A DNA stretch of 64,000 nucleotides from contig JAPLDH010000038.1 of the NCBI GenBank assembly GCA_026391355.1, forward strand, positions 1 through 64,000, in the 5' to 3' direction. Source of the stretch: Bacteroidota bacterium. GTDB taxonomy: Bacteria > Bacteroidota > Bacteroidia > Bacteroidales > FEN-979. The notes under the pieces are model-generated. The model searched no databases and was not told the origin of the DNA. It saw only the letters and a list, made by a program, of their open reading frames with translations. Positions 7,418-35,700 of the stretch are shown piece by piece. The translations under genes were made by a program, and so were the position numbers. Within the stretch, counting starts at the first letter, position 1, and each line of letters starts with the position of its first letter.

Positions 7418-7753
7418 ATGAAACAATTTGGCTATAGCATTAATCCTGACCGGCAGATTGATTATGATCTGACGGATAAGAGCCTGCTTTCTTTTATTGT
7501 CAGTTTCGAACCATCCCTCCTGTCATGTATCTCATGCGGAACATGCACAGCCACCTGTACTGCGGGTCACTTTACCGACTTTAATATTCGCCGGGTGCAT
7601 ACTCTGCTTCGACGTGGGGAGATCACTACACTGAAAAAGGAAATTCAGAAATGTATGCTCTGCGGGAAATGTCAGCTTGCTTGTCCGGCCGGTGTAAATC
7701 TCAGGAACCTCATACGTTCAATCCATGTTGCTGTTGAAAAATTCAATGTATGA
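7418..7753 (+). CDS. HdrC-like 4Fe-4S protein (second copy)
   Basis: 111 aa; CISCGTCTATCTAG and CMLCGKCQLACPAG. Confidence 0.85.
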   Translation: MKQFGYSINPDRQIDYDLTDKSLLSFIVSFEPSLLSCISCGTCTATCTAGHFTDFNIRRVHTLLRRGEITTLKKEIQKCMLCGKCQLACPAGVNLRNLIRSIHVAVEKFNV

Positions 7754-9582
7754 CCTTTAATATCTTTGTTCTTCCTTTCAGCCTGGGATTTATCTTTCTC
7801 CTCCTTACTATCTTTTTCAGATACAGGAAATGGATAAAAGCACTTGAAAAAGAGGACAGGATAAGGTTTTCCCGGGGATTACACAGCCGAAAATTCTTTC
7901 TCTCCCTGAAGGAAATCCTTTTCGAAAGTTTACTGCATAGAAAAATGTTCCGTAAGAACCCGTTGCTGGGTTATATGCATATGACCTTTGCTTTCGGGTG
8001 GTTTTTATTGATCATTCTTGGGAATTTGGAGTCGAGGATCTATAGCGGATGGTGGATCAACCCTCCCTATTACCCGATCTTCATGAAGTTCTTCATTCAT
8101 GATAAACATGTCCTGCCTTTTGAGATATTCACCGTACCCGGTTTTTTCAGGTTCTCCATGGACCTGGTGCTGGTAGTCATCCTCAGCGGGCTGGTGCTGG
8201 CCATTATTAAAAGGAGACGATCCAGATGGTTCGGAATACAAAGAACAACCAGGTTGCAGCTTACTGATAAGGTTGCCATGACCTGTTTATGGCTGATCTT
8301 CCCATTACGGTTCCTTGCAGAAAGTTTCACATCAGGGGCATATGGATATGGTGGTGGTTTTGTTACGCAGCATTTCGGGAATCTCCTTGCGATACTATAT
8401 CCATTTTCAGATAAAAGTATAGCCTATGGATTCTGGTGGTTTTACTCCCTTTCATTGGGAATCTTTTTCGTTACACTCCCCTATTCCAGGTACATGCACA
8501 TTCCAACTGAATTGCTGTTGATCCTGTTCCGGAATTTCGGAATCAAACATGTCAAATCCTTTTCTGCATATGCGGATGTTGAAGTTTTCTCCTGCTCCAG
8601 ATGCGGAGTTTGTATTGATGTTTGCCAGCTTGCCACCGCAAACAGCATCCTGAATATTCAATCGGTCTATTTCATCCAGTCCATTCGTGACCGGGATGTG
8701 AGGGCAGATATAACCATGAAATGCCTCCTTTGCGGGAGGTGCACAGATACCTGTCCGGTGGGGATAAATACCGATTCCTTGCGGCTTATCGAGCGAAGAA
8801 ACTTTGCAATCAATCAGCTTCCGGTTCAGGATTACATTCCTGTTTCTATCAGGGAAAAAGCGGAAATTATCTATTTTGCAGGTTGTATGACCCATCTCAC
8901 ACCGGGCATAATCAAATCGATGATTACCATTTTTAAAACTGCAGATGTTGATTTTCTGTTCCTGGATGAAGAAAAAACGATATGTTGCGGAAGACCCTTA
9001 ATGATCACCGGCCAGGAAGATCAAGCTGCCAAAATGATCGGGATGAACAATCATTTAATTAAAACTTCAGGTGCAAAGTTACTGGTTACCTCCTGCCCGA
9101 TCTGTTACCGGATTTTCAGGGAGGAGTACAAACTGGACATTGAGGTACTTCATCATTCTCAATACATCCTTCAGCTCATCAGGAAAGGAAAAATACCGCT
9201 GCAGGCATATTTCAGAAATGTGGTATATCATGATCCCTGTGAACTCGGCAGAGGATCAGGAGTTTATATGGAACCCAGGGAGGTTCTTGAAAAAGTTGCT
9301 GACGTCAGATCCATAATAAACGAAAAGAATCGTTCGCTTTGTTGCGGGGGCAGTCTTGGGATTCTGAATATCGACAGGCATCAACGCGATGCGATAATAC
9401 ATGAAACCCTAAAGACCCTGATGTCAGGCAACCCTGAAATGATTGCAACAGCCTGTCCGTTATGTAAAAAAACCCTGAGCAAACACTCATCCGTAATGGT
9501 CAGGGATATTGCAGAAATTGTTTGTCAGGCAATACCAGGTACTAAATATAACCCTGTAGCACAATTAACAAAAGTAATTTGA
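7750..9582 (+). CDS. Membrane-bound DsrMK/HdrDE-like fusion (TM cytochrome-b-like + 4Fe-4S + two CCG domains)
   Basis: 610 aa; N-terminal TM segments; CSRCGVCIDVCQLA, CLLCGRCTDTCPVG; CCGRPLMI...CPICYRIF; CCGGSLGIL...CPLCKKTL. Confidence 0.82.
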   Translation: MTFNIFVLPFSLGFIFLLLTIFFRYRKWIKALEKEDRIRFSRGLHSRKFFLSLKEILFESLLHRKMFRKNPLLGYMHMTFAFGWFLLIILGNLESRIYSGWWINPPYYPIFMKFFIHDKHVLPFEIFTVPGFFRFSMDLVLVVILSGLVLAIIKRRRSRWFGIQRTTRLQLTDKVAMTCLWLIFPLRFLAESFTSGAYGYGGGFVTQHFGNLLAILYPFSDKSIAYGFWWFYSLSLGIFFVTLPYSRYMHIPTELLLILFRNFGIKHVKSFSAYADVEVFSCSRCGVCIDVCQLATANSILNIQSVYFIQSIRDRDVRADITMKCLLCGRCTDTCPVGINTDSLRLIERRNFAINQLPVQDYIPVSIREKAEIIYFAGCMTHLTPGIIKSMITIFKTADVDFLFLDEEKTICCGRPLMITGQEDQAAKMIGMNNHLIKTSGAKLLVTSCPICYRIFREEYKLDIEVLHHSQYILQLIRKGKIPLQAYFRNVVYHDPCELGRGSGVYMEPREVLEKVADVRSIINEKNRSLCCGGSLGILNIDRHQRDAIIHETLKTLMSGNPEMIATACPLCKKTLSKHSSVMVRDIAEIVCQAIPGTKYNPVAQLTKVI

Positions 9583-9643
9583 ATTACCCTGCGCTTTAGC
9601 GCAGGGGTTAAAAGCGAAAATAAAACCGGGCTTTAGCCCAAAA
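9578..9643. repeat. Left inverted REP-like palindromic element
   Basis: tttgaattaccctgcgctttagcgcaggggtt...ccgggctttagccc; two internal palindromes; resembles the reverse complement of 12261-12325. Confidence 0.7.
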
Positions 9644-9725
9644 CTTCTATTAGAAATGGGATATGTACAAAAAAGGTTTAAGAACTACCAGTTCATAAAT
9701 TTATTAAACCAATATAAATAGCAGT

Positions 9726-11483
9726 ATGAACAAAACGAAAGCAAAATTTGCAATTATTTATTTACTAAAAGGGAATGAAACACCTCTGAGTGATCGACGT
9801 CCATCTATAGCTGTTCTGCCTGATGAAATTTTCCGAGAAAATGATATGGAAGATTCCCTTGATCCTAAATTTGCCATCTATACCTATATTGCCTATAATG
9901 ATGATGAAATTAAAGTTGGAGATTTATTTGTCCAAAAGATGACGGTGTCACATAAAAAATGGAAATATCAGGTTGTTTTTCAATGTCATGATATTTCTAA
10001 AGGATTCCTTTATGATTTTGCTGGGCACGAATTCTTACCTGATAATGTCTATAAAGTCATTCTAGTAGATAGACAATTTCCAGAGAAATTTCTTGAGCAG
10101 GTTTTACTTGGTGTATTTGAAGATGGAGCAGAAATAGAAATTGAATGCTTTTATGAATTTGATAGAAATGCAAAAGCAGGATATATAGATTTATCAAAAA
10201 AAATACACCAGCAAGTCGAAATTAAAATAAAGAGTTGGGATCTTTTATATAAGGAGGAATTGGATTTCTTTGTTTATACGCATGAAGAAATAGAAGAAAT
10301 AGTGTCAAGTTTTTTTAACTCCAAAGAATTCAGGGAAAGTAAAAACAAGTTAATGGCGTTTAAGGGATTTTTCTGGAGAAATAAGAAAGAAGACCTTTCT
10401 AACACTAATCAAGAATTAATGACTTCTCAGCAAGAGAAATCAAATGAAACACTCAATAATTTATTAGACTATTTTCAATATTCTGAAGAAGAGGATAAAA
10501 TCATTTGCGGGCAAATGAGCATGTTACATCATTGCTTATATTCTGTTAAAATTATAAATGGAATAATAACTAAGGACGAGCCAATTCATTTAGATGCTGA
10601 TTATATTAATTTTAAAGCTTTTTTCGATGAGAGAGGTGATCAGACTGCAAGAATAGTATATAAATCAGGAGGAGTATTTAGAAGTGATTACAAATATTCA
10701 TATGATAGTAAAAATCGGTTATTGGAACAATCAAGTAAAGAGCTGAATGGTCCTGAGAGTCATGTCTTTCATTATTTTTATAATGAAGATAAATTAATAA
10801 AGACGGAAATCACTTTTATTTACAAACCAGATAGGTTCTCAGAACCTGATGATTTTGATGACTATGGAAATCCAATTTATAATTATTATAGAAATGATTC
10901 AGATTATTCAGTCGAAGAAGATGATACGCATTATGAAACAGAAATAATCATTTTTATATATGACGATCAGACTAAATTGTTAATAGAATCTGGCATTAAA
11001 ATCGAAGAACAATATATTAAAAAGGAAACATATTCATATTATCAAAATGATAAAGTTAAGGAACATGCTTGGTATATTAATAATGGTTCAGTATTATCTA
11101 AAAAACATGTTTATACATATCTTGATGATAATCATTCCGAAGTTAGAAAGTATGGTACAAATGGAGATATCTTCGAGGTCGTTGAAGAAAATAAGATTAA
11201 TAATCAGTTGATTAAGATAATTTATGAATATAAGTTTACCTGCTTTCAAAAAAAGGTGTTTACATATGACTTAAACAACTGGTTAGTTAAATACGAAATA
11301 TATTCTATTAACCATGATTTAGTTTCCACAGTTGATGAATTAGTTGAGAGCCGACTATTTGAATATGAATGTGATGTGAAAGGTAATTGGATTAAAAGGA
11401 TAGAATATTATAAAGTGAAGGGGAATATTAATTTTTATCCGATTACAATTACAGAAAGAGAAATAATATATTTTAATTTATGA
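9726..11483 (+). CDS. Hypothetical protein with YD-like beta repeats in its C-terminal half
   Basis: 585 aa long ORF, AT-rich; 'YKYSYDSKNRLLEQSSKEL...HYFYNEDKLIKTEITF' spacing is YD-like. No confident family. Confidence 0.6.
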   Translation: MNKTKAKFAIIYLLKGNETPLSDRRPSIAVLPDEIFRENDMEDSLDPKFAIYTYIAYNDDEIKVGDLFVQKMTVSHKKWKYQVVFQCHDISKGFLYDFAGHEFLPDNVYKVILVDRQFPEKFLEQVLLGVFEDGAEIEIECFYEFDRNAKAGYIDLSKKIHQQVEIKIKSWDLLYKEELDFFVYTHEEIEEIVSSFFNSKEFRESKNKLMAFKGFFWRNKKEDLSNTNQELMTSQQEKSNETLNNLLDYFQYSEEEDKIICGQMSMLHHCLYSVKIINGIITKDEPIHLDADYINFKAFFDERGDQTARIVYKSGGVFRSDYKYSYDSKNRLLEQSSKELNGPESHVFHYFYNEDKLIKTEITFIYKPDRFSEPDDFDDYGNPIYNYYRNDSDYSVEEDDTHYETEIIIFIYDDQTKLLIESGIKIEEQYIKKETYSYYQNDKVKEHAWYINNGSVLSKKHVYTYLDDNHSEVRKYGTNGDIFEVVEENKINNQLIKIIYEYKFTCFQKKVFTYDLNNWLVKYEIYSINHDLVSTVDELVESRLFEYECDVKGNWIKRIEYYKVKGNINFYPITITEREIIYFNL

Positions 11484-11568
11484 CATATATATTACAATTA
11501 CATGATTAAAACACATAATAATTTCCTTTCAATGTAACTCTTAAAATATTTGCTATTAAAGTTAAACA

Positions 11569-12123
11569 ATGACTCAAATGATTACTTTAGAATTTGACTT
11601 TTATAATCAATTCCTTCATGAGGGCAGTCCTTTTTATAATGATTTAAGAAAACTTGGAAATAAGAACTCGTTTAATATTTGGGTGCATGAAAATTTTAGA
11701 AGGTTTAAAGTTATAAATAAATTTCGAGAAGTCGTTCCCTCTTCCAAAACTTTAAAAGAATTAAGAGAAAAGAATTACGTCCATCATGCAGGCCAATGTC
11801 ATTATTCAGCAAAAGCACTCTGTATTTTATTAAACAATTGTGACTATGTGACAGGATTTATTCGGTGTTCAAATTTGGAATTTCCTATAATTACACACTC
11901 ATTTAATCTTCTAAACGGGAAACTTACAGATATTACACGATTAGATGAGAATTTTAAAGTAATCCAAACCTATTACTTTCCTCTGTCCCATGAATATTTT
12001 GGGGTAGTCATTCCAAAATCATTTGTGAATAATTTCAAGGAGGAGACGTTTTCGGTATACTCAATGAATCCACTTATTAACGAATGGTATATAAATCAAA
12101 CAGATAAAACTCTTGGACTTTAA
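11569..12123 (+). CDS. Hypothetical protein, possible papain/transglutaminase-like Cys-His-Asp fold
   Basis: 184 aa; ordered motifs 'HHAGQCHYSAKALC', 'ITHSFNLLNGKLTDITRLD' resemble a C...H...D triad. Confidence 0.5.
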   Translation: MTQMITLEFDFYNQFLHEGSPFYNDLRKLGNKNSFNIWVHENFRRFKVINKFREVVPSSKTLKELREKNYVHHAGQCHYSAKALCILLNNCDYVTGFIRCSNLEFPIITHSFNLLNGKLTDITRLDENFKVIQTYYFPLSHEYFGVVIPKSFVNNFKEETFSVYSMNPLINEWYINQTDKTLGL

Positions 12124-12260
12124 TTTCAGGCTTATAACAAAACTGAGATGAATTTTCATGCACTTTAGGGTTAGGAAAAGCCAGATCAAAACTAAGCTTA
12201 ATATTTTTACGTGTGATGTGATATTTTAAAATTTTGCAAACTGTTTTTTATTCGACTTTT

Positions 12261-12325
12261 TCGGCTAAAGCCCTTACTTTATTTGGCTTTCTGAAACCCC
12301 GGCCTGAAGGCCAGGGTAATTCAAA
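12261..12325. repeat. Right inverted REP-like palindromic element
   Basis: tcggctaaagccc...aaaccccggcctgaaggccagggtaattcaaa; its reverse complement matches the layout of 9578-9643. Confidence 0.7.
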
Positions 12326-12381: not shown

Positions 12382-14244
12382 ATGAAAACGATACCGGGAG
12401 ACAATACCAACAAAAGAAAAATCCTCACTTTCATCGCTGTTTATTCTGTCATTACCTTAGCCTGTACCGGGGTTTATTTTCAAACCATCTTCTATGATTT
12501 CACAAGACACGATGATAATATAATCATAATCAACAACCTGGCTTACCTTAAAGATCTTTCAAACCTGCCGGATGCCATCCTTACTGATGCCTGGTACAGA
12601 CATAAAGAGATCGAACTTTACCGTCCATTGCAGAATGTTTCTTTTATGATGGATGCACAATGGGGCGGAGATATCAAATTTGTAACACACCTCACGAACC
12701 TTATCCTTCATATACTTTGCTGTATATCCATCTTTCATCTCCTGATCCTGCTAAGGTTCAGAAAAAAGTATGCATTGGCAGGGGCATTGATATATGCAGT
12801 TCATTACCTGTTCCTCCATGCTGTGATCTGGGGTCCGGCACGGGGTGACCTTCTTCTCTCCCTGTTTTCTTTCCTTGCCATGATCACTTTTATCCTTCTC
12901 CTCCAACGGGGCAGGTGGTATTATAATGTCCTCCATATTTTAACCTTTGCCCTGGCATTGTTTTCCAAAGAAACTGCAATCACACTACCCGTCATTTTCC
13001 TGTTCTATCTCCTTCTTTTTAATAAGAAAAGATTGTGGGATAAAAATAACCTGGTTCTTGTGGCTTCTTATGTCATCATTATCATTATTTTCTACAGCTT
13101 AAGAGATCTCTCCATTGCCAAATCACAACAGGCAGTCGGTATCGGTCCTCTCATACTTAATCTCAGAACCATCCCGGAGGTGATCATCAAATTCTTCATC
13201 CCTTTGAATTTTTCCACAATGCCCTCTTTTGACCTTCTTGCCACTCTTCTTGGAACCCTTGTGATGATTGGGATGACGACCTTCTTTGTGGTGAAAAAGA
13301 AATTCTTCAATAATACCATTCTGTTTTCATTGCTCTGGTTTGGTTTATTCCTGCTTCCCGGGATTGCATACCGTCCTGAATTTGCATCCTATACGTACGA
13401 ATATCTTGATCACCGTGATTATCTTCCCTGCTTTGGGTTGCTGATGATCCTTTTATTTCCGGTTCAGGAAATCGAAACCGGCTCCCGCAAAGCCTACTTC
13501 CCAAAATTGATTCTCGCATTTTTTATCGTTATAATAGCATACCTTATCTCCATGAATTTTTATCTTCATCCGATCTATAAGAACCCGTTTGCTTACTCTC
13601 AAAGCGCTATTCAGAAAAATCCGAGATGTTCGATGGCCTATTTTATTCATGGAAATGAGATTTACAATATGGGGAAAAAGGAAGAAGCGTTGAGTGATTT
13701 TACCAATGCCGTCAAATATTATCCGAAATTCTATGATGCACGATACAACAAGGCAGCGCTCCTGTTCCAGAAAAAAATGTTCCCTGAAGCTTTGGAAGAC
13801 CTGAACTACCTGCTGGAAGCCAAACCTGATTATAACACCCAGTCGTATTTTATGCGGGGAATCATTGAATTTGATCTCCACGATGCCGATGCTTCAAAAC
13901 GCGACTTTGAAAATGTGTTGAAAGTTGATCCCGGAAATCAGGGTGCAAAGCAATACTTGTCGAATATTGAAAAGATCCAGAGTAACATTTCGCCTGCGCT
14001 TCAATTGGCTGCGAAATTCAATGAAGCAGGTATCAATGAAGGCCAGAAGGGTCATTATAAAGAAGCTTTGGATTTTTTCAATAAGGCACTGGCAGAAGCG
14101 CCTGATTTCGATCAGGCCATGGTAAACGCCGGAAACTGTAAGCATGCACTGGGTGATCTTGAAGGAGCTTGCGTGGATTGGAAAAAAGCTGCTGCCCACG
14201 GGAATAAATCCGCCCGGGAATTAATTGGCCAATTCTGTAAATAG
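12382..14244 (+). CDS. TMTC-like GT-C glycosyltransferase/TPR membrane protein
   Basis: 620 aa; multi-TM N-terminus with 'FTRHDDNIIIINN...YRPLQNVSFMMD' and 'ALFSKETAITLPV', then C-terminal TPR repeats. Confidence 0.75.
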   Translation: MKTIPGDNTNKRKILTFIAVYSVITLACTGVYFQTIFYDFTRHDDNIIIINNLAYLKDLSNLPDAILTDAWYRHKEIELYRPLQNVSFMMDAQWGGDIKFVTHLTNLILHILCCISIFHLLILLRFRKKYALAGALIYAVHYLFLHAVIWGPARGDLLLSLFSFLAMITFILLLQRGRWYYNVLHILTFALALFSKETAITLPVIFLFYLLLFNKKRLWDKNNLVLVASYVIIIIIFYSLRDLSIAKSQQAVGIGPLILNLRTIPEVIIKFFIPLNFSTMPSFDLLATLLGTLVMIGMTTFFVVKKKFFNNTILFSLLWFGLFLLPGIAYRPEFASYTYEYLDHRDYLPCFGLLMILLFPVQEIETGSRKAYFPKLILAFFIVIIAYLISMNFYLHPIYKNPFAYSQSAIQKNPRCSMAYFIHGNEIYNMGKKEEALSDFTNAVKYYPKFYDARYNKAALLFQKKMFPEALEDLNYLLEAKPDYNTQSYFMRGIIEFDLHDADASKRDFENVLKVDPGNQGAKQYLSNIEKIQSNISPALQLAAKFNEAGINEGQKGHYKEALDFFNKALAEAPDFDQAMVNAGNCKHALGDLEGACVDWKKAAAHGNKSARELIGQFCK

Positions 14245-14268
14245 TAATCAACAAAATAGTATCTCAAT

Positions 14269-15627
14269 ATGAAATCCCGGATCCTCTTATTATGCTGCAT
14301 CTTGTCTCTTTCAGTTACCCTTTTTGGCAGGCCCATGAGTGACAAACAAAAAGCAGCGCAATGTGAAAAAATCAAAGCAGCCACACGACATGCATGGGAA
14401 GGGTATAAGAAATACGCCTGGGGATTTGATGCATTAAAACCCATCAGTAAACAGGGACAAAACTGGTACGGGGTTTCATTTCTAATGACACCGGTAGATG
14501 CCTTTGATACCTTTACCCTGATGGGACTGGATAAAGAAGCCAGAGAGGCCAAGGAACTTGTTTTATCAAAACTGACCTTTGATGTCGATCAGGAGGTGCA
14601 ACTTTTCGAGGTAAGCATCCGGTTGCTGGGTGGATTACTATCATCCTATGAGTTGGATGGGGATCCCGGATATCTGACCCTGGCAAAAGACCTGGGACGA
14701 AGGCTGCTTCCTGCCTTTCATTCTGAGACAGGAATGCCATGGCGATATGTAAATCTGAAAACAGGAAAAACAAGGGATTCGCTAAGTAACCCTGCAGAGA
14801 TCGGTACCTACCTCCTGGAATTCGGCAAGTTGACCCAATTTACCGGGGATTCGGTATATTTCAAAACAGCGAAAAAAGCCGCTTTGATGGTTTACAGAAA
14901 CCGCAGCGACAATGATCTGGTTGGAACCATCATCGATGTTACCACAGGAATGTGGAAAAACCGGGAAAGCCAGATTGGCGCAAGGATCGATTCATACTAT
15001 GAATATCTTTATAAATCCTGGAAACTTTTCGGAGATGAAAATTGTCATCATGCCTGGGAGGTATCCAATAAAGCAATAAAGAAATTTCTGCTGACAAAAA
15101 CTCCCAACGGTTCTTTCTTTACACGGGTGAACATGATTTCAGGCAAGGAAACCCATCCTTATTACGGGGCATTGGATGCATTTTATGCCGGTATTCTTGC
15201 GCTCTCAGGAGATATTGAAACAGCATCCGAAGTTCAGAAAGGTAATTTTTATATGTGGACCCATTTTAAGATCGAACCCGAAGAGTTTGACTTCAAAAAA
15301 GATTCCGTGATCTCTCCCGAATATCCTCTTCGCCCAGAGAACCTGGAAAGTTGTTTTTATCTCTACAGGATGACGAAGGAGGATCAGTATCTCAGGATGG
15401 GCAAGCGAATGATCGGTGACATCCTGAAAAAATGCAGGACAAATGCAGGTTTTGCCGAAGTGAAGAACGTAAAGCCCCTTCAACTGAGCGATTCCATGGA
15501 AAGCTTCTTCCTGGCAGAAACCCTGAAGTATGCCTGGCTTCTCTTTGCTCCGGAATCAACCCTGGACCTGAATAAGGTGGTATTTAATACGGAAGCGCAT
15601 CCGCTTAAAATTCAACTGATGAACTAG
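14269..15627 (+). CDS. Glycoside hydrolase family 47 (class I alpha-1,2-mannosidase-like), exported
   Basis: 452 aa; 'HAWEGYKKYAWGFDALKPISK', 'PVDAFDTFTLMGL', 'VFNTEAHPLKI', 'MESFFLAETLKYAWLLF' match GH47 signatures. Confidence 0.92.
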   Translation: MKSRILLLCCILSLSVTLFGRPMSDKQKAAQCEKIKAATRHAWEGYKKYAWGFDALKPISKQGQNWYGVSFLMTPVDAFDTFTLMGLDKEAREAKELVLSKLTFDVDQEVQLFEVSIRLLGGLLSSYELDGDPGYLTLAKDLGRRLLPAFHSETGMPWRYVNLKTGKTRDSLSNPAEIGTYLLEFGKLTQFTGDSVYFKTAKKAALMVYRNRSDNDLVGTIIDVTTGMWKNRESQIGARIDSYYEYLYKSWKLFGDENCHHAWEVSNKAIKKFLLTKTPNGSFFTRVNMISGKETHPYYGALDAFYAGILALSGDIETASEVQKGNFYMWTHFKIEPEEFDFKKDSVISPEYPLRPENLESCFYLYRMTKEDQYLRMGKRMIGDILKKCRTNAGFAEVKNVKPLQLSDSMESFFLAETLKYAWLLFAPESTLDLNKVVFNTEAHPLKIQLMN

Positions 15628-29343: not shown

Positions 29344-31413
29344 ATGGGTTTTGCAAATCCTTTGTTCCTTATTGCACTTTCGGCGCTCGCAATCCCTGTC
29401 ATCATCCATCTTTTTAACTTCCGCAGGTTTAAGAAAATCTACTTCACCAATGTCAGGTTCATCGCCGAGATCAAGCAGGAGACCAGGAAACGCTCCCAGC
29501 TTAAACATCTTCTGATCCTCCTTATGCGGCTCCTCGCGATTGCCTGTCTTGTACTGGCTTTTGCACAACCTTATCTTCCTTCACCCATGCAGTATAAAAA
29601 ATATAGCGGCAAACAGATTGTCAGCATCTATATTGACAACTCATTCAGCCTGGAAGCCCTTGCTTCCGGCGGACGACTGCTCGACCTTGCAAAGACAAAA
29701 GCCCATGAGATTGCAGATGCCTATAACCCTTCCGACCTGTTTCAATTATTAACTAACGATTTTGAAGGACGGCACCAGCGGTTTGTGAATCGTGAAGAAT
29801 TGAAAACCCTGGTCGACGAAGTGCAGATCAGCCCTGCTTTACATACCATCCCGGAGGTGATAAAGAAACAAAACAGCATGTTGGAAGATGTGAATGGAAG
29901 AAACCGTTCTGCTTATATCATTTCCGATTTTCAGAAATCCACTGCCCGTATCGGATCAGTAAAGAGCGATACCTCTGTCGCTTATTTCTTTATCCCTGTT
30001 ATTGCTGAGAAAGTCAACAACCTTTATATCGATTCTGCCTGGTTTGATTCCCCTGTACAACAACCCAACCAGGCAGTAAAACTAAAGGTAAGGATCAGAA
30101 ACTGCTCGGATGAATCATTTGAAAAGCTGCCGTTGAAACTCCTGGTGAACAATGTGCAGAAAGGGTTAGCAAGCTTTTCTGTTTCACCCCGCGGTGATGC
30201 CATTGTTGTTCTTCCTTTTACAAACAATGCAAAGGGTATCCAGTACGGAACACTGCAGATCACTGATTACCCGGTAACATGGGACGATAACTTCTACTTC
30301 TCCTATCCTGTAAACCCGGCCATTCCTGTCCTGAGCATTAACGGAGATAAGGTGAATGTTTACCTGGATGCACTTTTCAGGAATGATACTGCCTTCACCT
30401 TTACAAACGCTTCTGAAAAGCAGTTGGATTACTCCTCTTTTGTTCATTATCCACTGATCATACTGAACAGCATTGATGAGATCTCATCGGGTCTCGGCCA
30501 GGAGATCACCCGGTATATCAAGCAAGGCGGAAATGTCGTGATCTTTCCGTCAGACAAGATCAATACAGGGAATTACAAGACGTTCCTTTCATCCCTCACC
30601 CTGCCCTGGTTTTCGGGATTGGATACAAACCGTCAGCGGATCGGTGAAGTCAATGCAGAAAGCCGGATTTTCAATGATGTATTCCTAAAGGATGCAAACG
30701 GGAAGGTACACCTCCCGGAAAATGTGGATCTCCCGATGGTGTTTCGTCATTACCCTGAAAACGCCTCCATTCGTTCAGGAACAGAAAACCTGCTGAAGCT
30801 ACAGAACGGTCAATGTTTCCTATCCGTAACCGGGATAGAAAAAGGAAAAGTTTATCTCTTCTCAGCACCTCTCGACGAGAAATTTACCAGCTTCCCAAAA
30901 CACTCCCTGTTCGTTCCAACCCTTTACAAAATCGCCTTGCTAAGTCAGCCGGACATCCCGTTGTATTATAACATTGATGCGGGTAATGCCATCAACATCA
31001 CGGCCGATTCCCTGAAGGGCAGGGAAGTATATAAGATCAGCAAACCCGGCACAAATTTCGAGATCATCCCCGAAATGCGTTCTGTCGGACAGGAGATGGT
31101 GATGTTTCCCCACGACCAGATCAAAGAAGCAGGCCACTATAACGTTTCTGCAGATCATACAACTTTGCTCGGACTTGCGTTTAATTACAATCGCATTGAA
31201 TCCGACCTCACATGCTTGACTCCTGCCGAATTAGAGAAAGATCTTAAGCAGACCCGGATCCGGTATTTTGCTGTCCTTCCCGCCAAAAAGGTTCCCCTTA
31301 CCAAACAGATCTACCAAATGAGCCAGGGAACGGCACTGTGGAAATATTTTATTATTCTCACTTTGCTGTTTATTGCCGGAGAGATATTGTTGGTGAGGCT
31401 GTTAAAGGAGTAA
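29344..31413 (+). CDS. BatA/aerotolerance-regulator N-terminal and vWA-like membrane protein
   Basis: 689 aa; 'MGFANPLFLIALSALAIPVIIHLFNFRRFKKIYFTNVRFIAEIKQETRKRSQLKHLLILLMRLLAIACLVLAFAQPYLP'. Confidence 0.92.
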   Translation: MGFANPLFLIALSALAIPVIIHLFNFRRFKKIYFTNVRFIAEIKQETRKRSQLKHLLILLMRLLAIACLVLAFAQPYLPSPMQYKKYSGKQIVSIYIDNSFSLEALASGGRLLDLAKTKAHEIADAYNPSDLFQLLTNDFEGRHQRFVNREELKTLVDEVQISPALHTIPEVIKKQNSMLEDVNGRNRSAYIISDFQKSTARIGSVKSDTSVAYFFIPVIAEKVNNLYIDSAWFDSPVQQPNQAVKLKVRIRNCSDESFEKLPLKLLVNNVQKGLASFSVSPRGDAIVVLPFTNNAKGIQYGTLQITDYPVTWDDNFYFSYPVNPAIPVLSINGDKVNVYLDALFRNDTAFTFTNASEKQLDYSSFVHYPLIILNSIDEISSGLGQEITRYIKQGGNVVIFPSDKINTGNYKTFLSSLTLPWFSGLDTNRQRIGEVNAESRIFNDVFLKDANGKVHLPENVDLPMVFRHYPENASIRSGTENLLKLQNGQCFLSVTGIEKGKVYLFSAPLDEKFTSFPKHSLFVPTLYKIALLSQPDIPLYYNIDAGNAINITADSLKGREVYKISKPGTNFEIIPEMRSVGQEMVMFPHDQIKEAGHYNVSADHTTLLGLAFNYNRIESDLTCLTPAELEKDLKQTRIRYFAVLPAKKVPLTKQIYQMSQGTALWKYFIILTLLFIAGEILLVRLLKE

Positions 31414-31504
31414 CAAGGTGACACAGTAACACAGTAACACAGTAACAGAATGTCAAAACACTTTTCTTCTCTTTGTCACTCTGTTACTATGTCACTGTGT
31501 CACT
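31411..31504. repeat. Intergenic inverted micro-repeat (GTGACACAGTAACACAGTAACA ... TGTTACTATGTCACTGTGTCAC)
   Basis: Complementary arms read directly; between the BatA-like gene and GT2. Confidence 0.8.
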
Positions 31505-31564
31505 ACTTTTTTTTTCCCAAAAATCTCCATAGGTTTGTACAGAATTAACAAAACCCAAACCCCT

Positions 31565-32320
31565 ATGTTGCTTAGTAAAAAGGTCGTGGTGGTTCTTCCG
31601 GCCTACAACGCTGAAAAGACGCTGGAAAACACCTACAATGAAATTCCTTTCGATATCGTCGATGATGTCATCCTCGTGGATGATGCCAGTAAAGACAATA
31701 CTGTTGAAGTTGCCCGCAGGATCGGAATTAAAACCATCATCCGGCACGAGCAGAACAAAGGCTATGGCGCCAACCAGAAATCCTGTTATGATAAGGCACT
31801 TGAACTGAATGCCGATATCGTGATCATGCTCCACCCCGATTATCAATACACCCCCCGGCTGATCCATTCCATGTCATATCTCATCGCCTTTGATCTCTAC
31901 CCGGTAGTACTTGGATCCCGTATCCTTGGCAGGGGCGCGCTGAAAGGTGGTATGCCCCGGTACAAGTATATTTTCAACCGCCTTCTTACCCTCAGCCAGA
32001 ACATACTGATCCGGGCCAAGCTATCCGAATACCATACAGGCTACCGTGCCTTTTCACGAGAGGTTTTGGAGCACATCAACTACCACGCAAACTCCAACGA
32101 CTTCGTTTTCGACAACCAGATGCTCTCCCAGATCCTTTTCCACGGCTATGACATCGCCGAGATCACCTGCCCCACCAAATACTTCGAAGAGGCCTCCTCC
32201 ATCAACTTCCGCCGTAGCATGAAGTATGGATTGGGAGTCCTTGGCACCTCATTCAAACATGCGTTGCAGAAGATGGGGGTGAGGAGGTTTAGGATCTATG
32301 AGCCTATGACGCAAGCTTAA
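31565..32320 (+). CDS. Glycosyltransferase family 2
   Basis: '[46 protein letters not shown]', '[11 protein letters not shown]'; start reassigned to MLLSKK at 31565. Confidence 0.93.
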
Positions 32321-32701
32321 ATATACATTTTTCTATCTTCTTGATATACTATACGATAGCAATTATTTTTAAGATTTTTATATTTTATTTTTTAAAATAC
32401 ATTGTTTTTCGATTAATATTCATAATTTTAAGCGCTTTACTTTTCATTTATTCTTTTGATATTAAAGATAAATTTTAGGTATCACACACGATACTCATAA
32501 AAGATAATACCTTACTGCATTTTATGCGGTAATACATTATGCTGCTTTGAATTAGTTTTTTGTTCTTATATACATTAACTTTTAATTTTAATCTATCGAA
32601 CAAATCTACTTTACTGCTAATCAAAAAATTTTTGATGTCATAAGAACCTAAAACTTCCTGGACTTCATATTTATTAAGTTTAACCTTAATTCAGGAAGAC
32701 A

Positions 32702-35700
32702 ATGAAAAAGGTAATATTATTCTTTCTTTGCATCATTATCGGGACTCACTTTTCTTTTTCCCAGGTTGCCATAAACCAGGATGGCACATTACCGGATAGT
32801 TCAGCTATGCTGGATATAAAATCAATTACAAAAGGGTTGCTTGTTCCACGAATGACAACAGGGCAACGTGACCTGATCTCTAATCCCGCGTAAGGATTAC
32901 TCATTTTCTCTACCAGCGATAACAAGTTTTATTTTAACCAGGGTACTCCTACTTCAAAGAACTGGGTTGCTATAGAAGGTCAATGGATCACTGTCGGAAA
33001 TAATATATATTATCCTGGTGGTAATGTCGGTATCGGGGTAAGCACCCCCGGAAAGCAACTTGAACTGACAAAATCAATGAAATTGCCCGAAACTACTGAT
33101 GATTCAACGGGAGTGATCTATAAAGGTCCTTATCCTTTTTTACATGATTACGGTACGCGAAATGTTTTTCTCGGCCAGAATGCGGGCAATTTCTTGATGA
33201 CAGGAAGTAATAATATTGGAATTGGACCATTGTCCCTTTCAGCCAATAGTTCAGGAATGAGTAATGTAGGAATTGGAAGAAACGCTCTATTTTCGAATAC
33301 CTCAGGTAGCTATAATTTCGGGCTTGGCGAAGGCTCTCTTTTTTCAAACACAACAGGAAACTATAATCTTGGTATTGGTTTGTATTCTCTTACAAACCAA
33401 TTACAAAGCAACAGCAATATCGGTATCGGATATTATTCATTGTCTGGGTTAACTTATGGATCCGAGAATACTGCCATAGGAAACCATGCCTTAGAAGGCC
33501 TTACAACAGGTCAAAATAACATAGGAATTGGTAATAATGCTGGTTTAATTAATAACGGTAACTCCAACATTTTTATTGGAAATTCGGCAGGGAAATTTGA
33601 AACCGGTAATAATTCCATAATGTTTGATAACCATGGTGATACCAGGACCAATGAATCAAACGCAAGGAATAATTCTATTTTTTATGCTACCGGTTCCGGT
33701 GCGTCTGATAATATGATCACCTTTAATGGGCGTGTAGGAATCGGAACTATCTCGCCTTCTGTTCAGTTTGAAGTTGCCGGAAATGCCAGGGTTGGAGGAA
33801 CATTAAATGTAGCTGATAAGCTTACCACCATGGCATCATCAACTTCTAATTCGGGTATAATTTTACCACATGGAACGGCGCCTCTTTCACCTGTTAATGG
33901 CGACTTATGGACTACAACTTCTGGATTGTATGGACAGATAAACGGAACAACTATTGGTCCTTTTGAAAATCAACAAAACAAAGCTACCAATCCAACCCTA
34001 GGGGCATCTGATATATATTATCCTTCTCAGAATGCAGTTAAAACTTATGTTGACAATGGTTTGTCGGGTAAACAAAATACGCTGATTACCGGTACATTAA
34101 CATCCACGTCTCCATTAGTGGCCGATGCAATAAGGTCCGTTATAGGCGGCTCTTTAACTTTATCCATGCCTGCTGCTTCGGGTTCTGTTGATGGTTATTT
34201 AACCAAAGACAATTGGACTACATTTAATGGAAAAGCAGATGCCAGTCAAACGATGTATATTGGTACAACGGCTGAAGCAATAAACAGGGCTTCCGGTTCA
34301 CAAACCTTAAATGGCGTCAGCATTGACGGTAATGCAGCAACAGTTACCAATGGGGTTTACACCACAAGTTCATATACTGATCCTTCCTGGATTACCTCTT
34401 TGGCAGGCTCCAAAGTTAGTGGTGATATAGGTGGAAACGCAGGAGGCTTGACAGCCCAGTTCATTGATTGGAATGCTACCTCTGGTGGCTCTTCTATCAA
34501 AAACAAACCAACTCTTACTAGCGGTACGGTGACATCAGTAGCAACAGGATATGGTGTATTAGGCGGACCAATTACCTCAACAGGAACCATACTTGCTGAC
34601 ACGGGTGCTGTTGATGGTTTGGTATCAAAAGTCAGATTTGGACATCCTACTGCATTTCCAACCCTGAATCAGAATACAGAAGGCACAGCGGGGAATGTTA
34701 CTGGAACGGTTGCTATTGCCAACGGTGGAACAGGACAGACCTCAAAGTCAGCAGCTTTTGATGCCCTCAGCCCAATGAGCGCACCTGGTGACATGATTTA
34801 TGGTGGAACTTCAGGCACCGGTACAAGGTTAGTAGCAGGATCTGAAGGACAGCTTTTAACTTTTACAAGTGGCGTCCCTTTCTGGACTCCTCCTGGTTCA
34901 ATATCTGTGGGTAATGCGACAAATTTTACCGGAAGTTTGTCTGGCGATGTTACAGGTACACAAAGCGCCACAACTGTTGCTAAGATCAATGGTGTAACTT
35001 TGGGAAGCACTGCTGCTACCGATAAAAATATCCTGATTGCAAATGGAACTACTTGGTGTAGCCAACCAATGAGCGGTGATATAACCATAGACAATTCCGG
35101 AGGTACGACCATTGGAAGCAACAAAGTAACCTATACCAAGATGCAGACTGTTGGTTCTACAAGTAAACTTTTAGGCAGTTCGGCTACTTCTAATTCTGTT
35201 CAGGAAATAGGCCTTGGCAGTGGCCTTAACATCACAGGAACAACCCTTAATGCTACAGGCGTATCCCCCGATGGTTCTTCCTTACTGAGCGGAAAAATAT
35301 GGTTGGGTAACTCTTCTAACGTAGCTGCACCCGTAACTCCATCTGGTGATGTAACTATTGACAACACCGGCGTTACATCCATAGGTGCAGGTAAGGTTAC
35401 AAACAGCATGCTTGCCGGTTCTATTGACCTGACTTCAAAAGTCGCGAACATTTTACCGGTTGCAAATGGAGGTACCGGAGTTTCTTCATTTGGAAGTACC
35501 AACCGGATACTTTACACTCCGACAACAAATACCCTTTCATGGACTAATACAGCGAGTAACGGGGTGCTTGTTACTGATGGAACCGGTATACCCTCCATTG
35601 GTTCCACGCTTCCATCTGCAGTTCAGGATAATATCACCAGGCTTGGCAATATTACCTCGGGAATCTGGAGTGGAACCGCTATCGGAGTTACAAAGGGTGG

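Follow-up and report, generated by a model that had tools for sequence, protein, structure and literature searches.

In the DNA window analysed here (64,000 nt; positions 1–64,000 of the forward strand of contig JAPLDH010000038.1, Bacteroidota bacterium, GenBank assembly GCA_026391355.1), two sets of palindromes enclose a pair of AT-rich genes. We favour, with a probability of roughly 0.58, the reading that these palindromes are two separate remnants of one transposable element family, related to a little-studied group of single-strand DNA transposases and lying in the same polarity on either side of a horizontally acquired gene pair, over the readings that they are the ends of a composite unit or the halves of a split element. 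The left remnant, a lone 5′ half with transposase start codons, would have inserted at the end of an Hdr-like gene, and the right remnant would be a complete 175-bp miniature element with a decayed 5′ half. The gene pair and each of the two remnants would have arrived in separate events, and the remnants would have spread by single-strand cut-and-paste through a transposase that was not found in the assembly. The cassette-like appearance of the locus is probably due to chance in the survival of particular halves, although this is not certain.

The palindromes and the enclosed genes

Two related double hairpins were observed in opposite orientation at 9580–9643 and 12258–12323. The paired palindromes proved to be as the first-pass annotation had described them, with a common outer 14-mer, TTTGAATTACCCTG, which occurred at exactly two sites in the 4.83-Mb genome assembly (98% complete), 9578–9591 on the plus strand and 12312–12325 on the minus strand; the reversed 14-mer, used as a control, gave zero matches in the same 4.83 Mb. 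The left palindromes (plus strand; stem 1, 9587–9606; stem 2, 9628–9639) form an intact 5′-type half, which scored 80 bits with covariance model R1 and +25.8 in the half-type classifier. The right palindromes (minus strand) form an intact 3′-type half, with corresponding scores of 76.5 bits and −27.3, and both halves are among the best of the genome. The classifier was checked by leave-one-out, in which 1 of the 18 training halves was misassigned. The stems covary: when 14 half copies from the window's genome were aligned, 5 of the 12 stem pairs had changed on both sides (17 cells with both-side changes versus 6.0 expected from shuffles), and 95% of the cells were paired, as compared with 19–47% when the partners were slid. 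An Rfam search gave no match.

The Hdr-like ORF (7750–9582) stops at the TGA at 9580–9582, inside the left palindrome, so that the overlap noticed in the first-pass annotation is real. Whatever their origin, the hairpins might be retained here because they terminate transcription of the adjacent genes or stabilise their mRNAs. The intact halves do lie just downstream of coding regions (the left one at 9580, where the Hdr-like gene stops, and the right one at 12258, past ORF2) and RNA hairpins are possible on both strands, but a T-run follows only one hairpin, on the minus strand (9641–9626), and many halves in relatives are located upstream of genes; we consider such a role very improbable.

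The enclosed DNA (28.6% GC between the two halves) contains ORF1 (9726–11483, plus strand, 585 aa, 29% GC) and ORF2 (11569–12123, plus strand, 184 aa, 30% GC), and the AT-rich DNA ends at the palindromes on both the left and the right. The GC content of the two ORFs is 29–30% and their GC3 22–25%, versus 41–45% and 43–51% in the flanking genes, and their earlier description as AT-rich orphans held up. ORF1 matched nothing in Pfam, NCBIfam, PADLOC or PDB and had a single sub-significant PHROGs match (E 0.13). Neither the 98 related genomes nor the 396 phylum genomes contained a convincing relative; a 19-bit match in genome G048 was dismissed on inspection because it falls inside a SusD-like ORF. 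Searches for a function among protein families, PDB, plasmids, phages, viral contigs and the 396 phylum genomes returned nothing for ORF1 and one distant relative for ORF2. Cys77, His110 and Asp121 of ORF2 are conserved in this relative and could form a thiol-enzyme triad. AlphaFold predictions from single sequences were uninformative for the two ORFs (mean pLDDT, 37 and 31).

The palindromes are ends of a Y1 transposase element

The palindromes correspond to the 5′ and 3′ ends of an element of about 570 bp, which consists of a two-hairpin 5′ end, a gene for a 145-aa Y1 (HUH) transposase and a two-hairpin 3′ end. The half-element covariance model detected about ten loci in the window's genome, most of them compact, REPIN-like convergent pairs of 133–251 bp composed of a 5′-type and a 3′-type half, and it matched 26 of the 43 genomes of the family. 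The first-pass annotation had regarded the palindromes as REP-like and proposed a search for further copies. In seven convergent pairs, 371–570 bp apart, the halves have a Y1 transposase gene between them; it is intact (145 aa) at L059 (in the same-genus relative), L061, L065, L066 and L119 and damaged at L060 and L064. Forms that carry the transposase between these ends were found in five other genomes, the ends being 515–570 bp apart in full-length copies, and no tnpB was found between the element ends. On inspection, the compact copies retain the first codons of the transposase (ATGGGATATGT..., GTGAAAATTTGGG) and the last ones (TTTCGGGCTAA), the stop codon of which falls within the inner hairpin; the compact copies are therefore internal-deletion derivatives.

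A span census of 16 genomes, based on the covariance-model matches, showed that lone intact halves are common in relatives and that same-direction neighbouring elements also occur, the latter being present in the window's genome as well, on contig C29. By inspection, the lone halves in relatives adjoin genes read as TrpRS, IMP dehydrogenase and carbamoyltransferase. The first-pass annotation had named two observations that would speak against a mobile cassette, namely palindromes flanking unrelated genes as single elements, and relatives that keep the two ORFs without palindromes. The former was encountered, in that lone halves beside unrelated core genes are common in relatives, and the latter was not, as no relative has the ORFs.

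Two other repeats were seen in the course of these comparisons. In several copies (partner halves at L069, L070, L071, L041, L039 and L072), an interruption of one half lies close to a second repeat, the ends of which resemble GGGGTTGTCTAATAAG / TGACTAAAAAG; by inspection, this repeat looks like another miniature element inserted into copies of the family, and its insertion may account for many of the lone halves. A distinct short repeat, built around one central palindrome (CCCCAGCCTTAAGGCTGGGG) between outer inverted sequences like GAGTCCACTC(C/T)GAAAAGTC, is present at L007 and L011 (contig C38, 5961–6056, and contig C50, 10284–10379, of the window's genome), where the half-element model matches both strands.

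The transposase of the family matches Pfam Y1_Tnp. It scored 64–71 bits with the NCBIfam model transpos_IS200, above the cut-off of 55, and 26–30 bits with the REP_Tyr_transpos (RAYT) model, below the cut-off of 80. The copies in relatives carry the motifs EHVH, WQ, and YIKNQEEHH or YIKNQENHH; the Y...NP motif of class 2 (RAYT) was not found in them, YIKNQEEHH being in its place. The motifs DH[IV]H, WQ and YIKNQKEHH have been reported for TnpA_Y1 subclass 1.2, members of which generally lack terminal secondary structures and IS properties (Quentin et al. 2018, PMC6006769). Judged by motif and length, the enzyme probably corresponds to subclass 1.2 of the IS200/REP superfamily. Thus, of the REP/RAYT-type mobilisation suggested in the first-pass annotation, the part that stands is the identity of the palindromes as ends of an element with a Y1 (HUH) transposase, and the part that does not is the RAYT itself, the enzyme being IS200-like with subclass 1.2 motifs and not a classical RAYT. 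The annotation had also advised a genome search for a RAYT/Y1 transposase; three Y1 genes were indeed found in the window's genome, one of them stop-interrupted, but all are only 30–38% identical to the enzyme of the family, and no cognate transposase was found in the 98% complete assembly. Two of the genome's own Y1 genes, at L025 (contig C30, 1135–1936) and L024 (contig C37, 2019), have a Y..NQ..HH motif and lie near other palindromes, of the form (C/T)GTCCC-TA-GGGAC. CGTC-tagged repeats have been reported to lack a dedicated transposase (PMC3733652), but their published stems differ from these palindromes.

The right palindromes probably belong to a separate miniature element

Beyond the left palindromes, a remnant of the transposase start (ATGGGATATGT..., 9656–9690, plus strand) was detected 12 bases past the inner hairpin, the same position as in intact elements. 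All five transposase alignments begin at its ATG, and in the comparison with L066 the score was reached by 0–4 of 2000 shuffles. No 3′ half follows at 9636–10000, and the left remnant is a lone 5′ half carrying the transposase start codon. The earlier remark that no transposase lies inside is consistent with this, start codons alone remaining in the window. The start sequence after the left half at first suggested one element in which the transposase had been swapped for two genes, and a single expanded element with such a cargo was our earlier leading idea; it was dropped on account of the sequence at 12149–12246.

This segment (plus strand), adjacent to the right palindromes, resembles a 5′ half followed by a transposase-start remnant, ATGTGATATTTTAAAATTT. 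Its alignment to L122 scored 168, none of the 3165 other windows scored above 122, and 0 of 3000 dinucleotide shuffles reached the score (Gumbel p 3e-5; nearer 3e-4 after correction, as L122 was the best reference chosen from about a dozen). With other references p was about 1e-3, and covariance model R1 gave E = 0.007. A putative decayed 5′ half is thereby supported statistically, through alignment. With its own 5′ half beside the right palindromes, the right element is thus a whole one (12149–12323). Its span of 175 bp is typical of the compact copies, and its polarity is the same as that of the left remnant. The claim of the first-pass annotation that the two palindromes are the ends of one cassette accordingly found no support, since the right one belongs to a separate compact element.

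The same segment bears on the possibility that the gene pair inserted into a single miniature element and separated its two halves, now seen as the left and right palindromes. The 5′ and 3′ types are correct for such an event, and the transposase start follows the left half. However, the right half already owns a decayed 5′ half and transposase start, so that a partial duplication would also be needed, and no significant transposase 3′ sequence was found beyond the right palindrome. A split element is improbable on these grounds.

Several further observations weigh on the reading as two separate remnants. In its favour, relatives have transposase-bearing forms with the same ends, compact derivatives keep the start and end of the transposase gene, the decayed 5′ half gives the right element a typical compact span, lone intact halves are common in relatives, and same-direction neighbours occur elsewhere. 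Against it, it is precisely the two outermost halves, a 5′-type and a 3′-type one, that are intact, the AT-rich DNA is bounded by the palindromes, and the two halves of the right element are about 62 bits apart in decay, where uninterrupted compact pairs differ by at most about 24 bits.

A rival reading is that of a composite, mobilisable but non-autonomous unit of 2.75 kb, in which the intact outer ends would cooperate, a subclass 1.2-like transposase acting in trans would move the passengers and the unneeded inner 5′ end would have decayed. The outer 5′ and 3′ halves alone are intact, the 2744-bp convergent pair is the only one exceeding 570 bp in the 16 genomes, and the orphans are absent from relatives and lie in DNA far more AT-rich than its surroundings. 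On the other hand, no second copy of the gene pair or of the 2.75-kb unit was found in the window's genome or in the related and phylum genomes, the window's genome yielded no cognate transposase, strong asymmetry and lone halves are both frequent in the absence of cargo, and no REPIN literature that we found mentions passenger genes. We regard a composite as unlikely, but keep it open because the outer ends are intact and the decay of the right element is unusually unequal. In its most specific form, a subclass 1.2 HUH transposase would act in trans on the two-hairpin ends at the outside of a REPIN-like composite and carry the foreign genes along together, while an inner end decays. This version is somewhat more doubtful still; if true, it would mean that genes can be captured in a way that the literature searched does not report for REP/REPIN systems. 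If, as we prefer, two separate remnants flank the gene pair, the mechanism at this locus is ordinary, and the locus serves as a caution that two surviving halves can mimic a cassette.

The interval in relatives and other AT-rich islands

In relatives from genera g6 and g8, convergent ValRS comes immediately after the FAD-HdrC-HdrD genes, without the two ORFs and without the genes for a TPR protein and GH47 that lie in the window. This adjacency of HdrD and ValRS, with nothing between, is in favour of two remnants and indicates that about 6 kb entered the interval in the window's lineage. An exact empty site, which the first-pass annotation had proposed to look for, was not found: a genome of the same genus lacks the Hdr cluster, and the nearest Hdr-bearing genomes belong to other genera, with about 65% protein identity and variable DNA downstream. 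The additional genes between Hdr and ValRS (12382–15627) are one that resembles TPR/membrane glycosyltransferases and one for GH47, an alpha-mannosidase family that is unusual in bacteria.

Two AT-rich segments elsewhere in the window's genome also carry elements of the family. On contig C29 (L139, 80000–95276), an AT-rich island at 85373–94747 encodes DISARM-like DrmA and DrmB (PADLOC E 1e-202 and 6e-64) and three unassigned ORFs, with two miniature elements at its right edge. On contig C42 (L138, 22000–40000), an AT-rich segment at 30262–33841 contains an IS1595-type transposase gene, a RhuM-family gene and two orphans, with a compact element copy at its right edge. The location of these two further element loci at edges of acquired AT-rich DNA raises the chance that elements and foreign genes meet through a shared insertion preference.

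Comparison with known systems

The family resembles TnpA_Y1 subclass 1.2 (PMC6006769) in the length of the transposase (145 aa versus a median of 148 aa), in the HUH, WQ and Y...Q..HH motifs, in a phylum range that takes in Bacteroidetes, and in low copy number; it differs in that its two-hairpin ends are inverted and conserved and that many derivatives with internal deletions exist, and the residue before HUH is E here but D in the published motif. It thus supplies a concrete substrate for transposases with subclass 1.2 motifs, namely two-hairpin ends, an element of about 570 bp and miniatures in several genera, and such recognisable ends make the activity of these enzymes directly testable. 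With REPIN/RAYT systems (Bertels and Rainey 2011, PMC3116915) it shares hairpin halves that occur as inverted pairs in scattered miniature elements, single halves left over as remnants and a related Y1 transposase, whereas here each half has two hairpins, the copies number about ten and not hundreds, and the transposase falls under the RAYT cut-off and over that for IS200. Like IS200/IS605 elements, the family has a Y1/HUH transposase, hairpins near its ends and no DDE-type terminal inverted repeats, but there are two hairpins per end, and copies with deletions are more numerous than complete ones. Mobile insertion cassettes and MITE-flanked passenger units use DDE transposases and double-strand ends. 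If the window did hold a composite unit, passengers between two non-autonomous ends would be a feature shared with these systems (TIMEs, PMC4133298).
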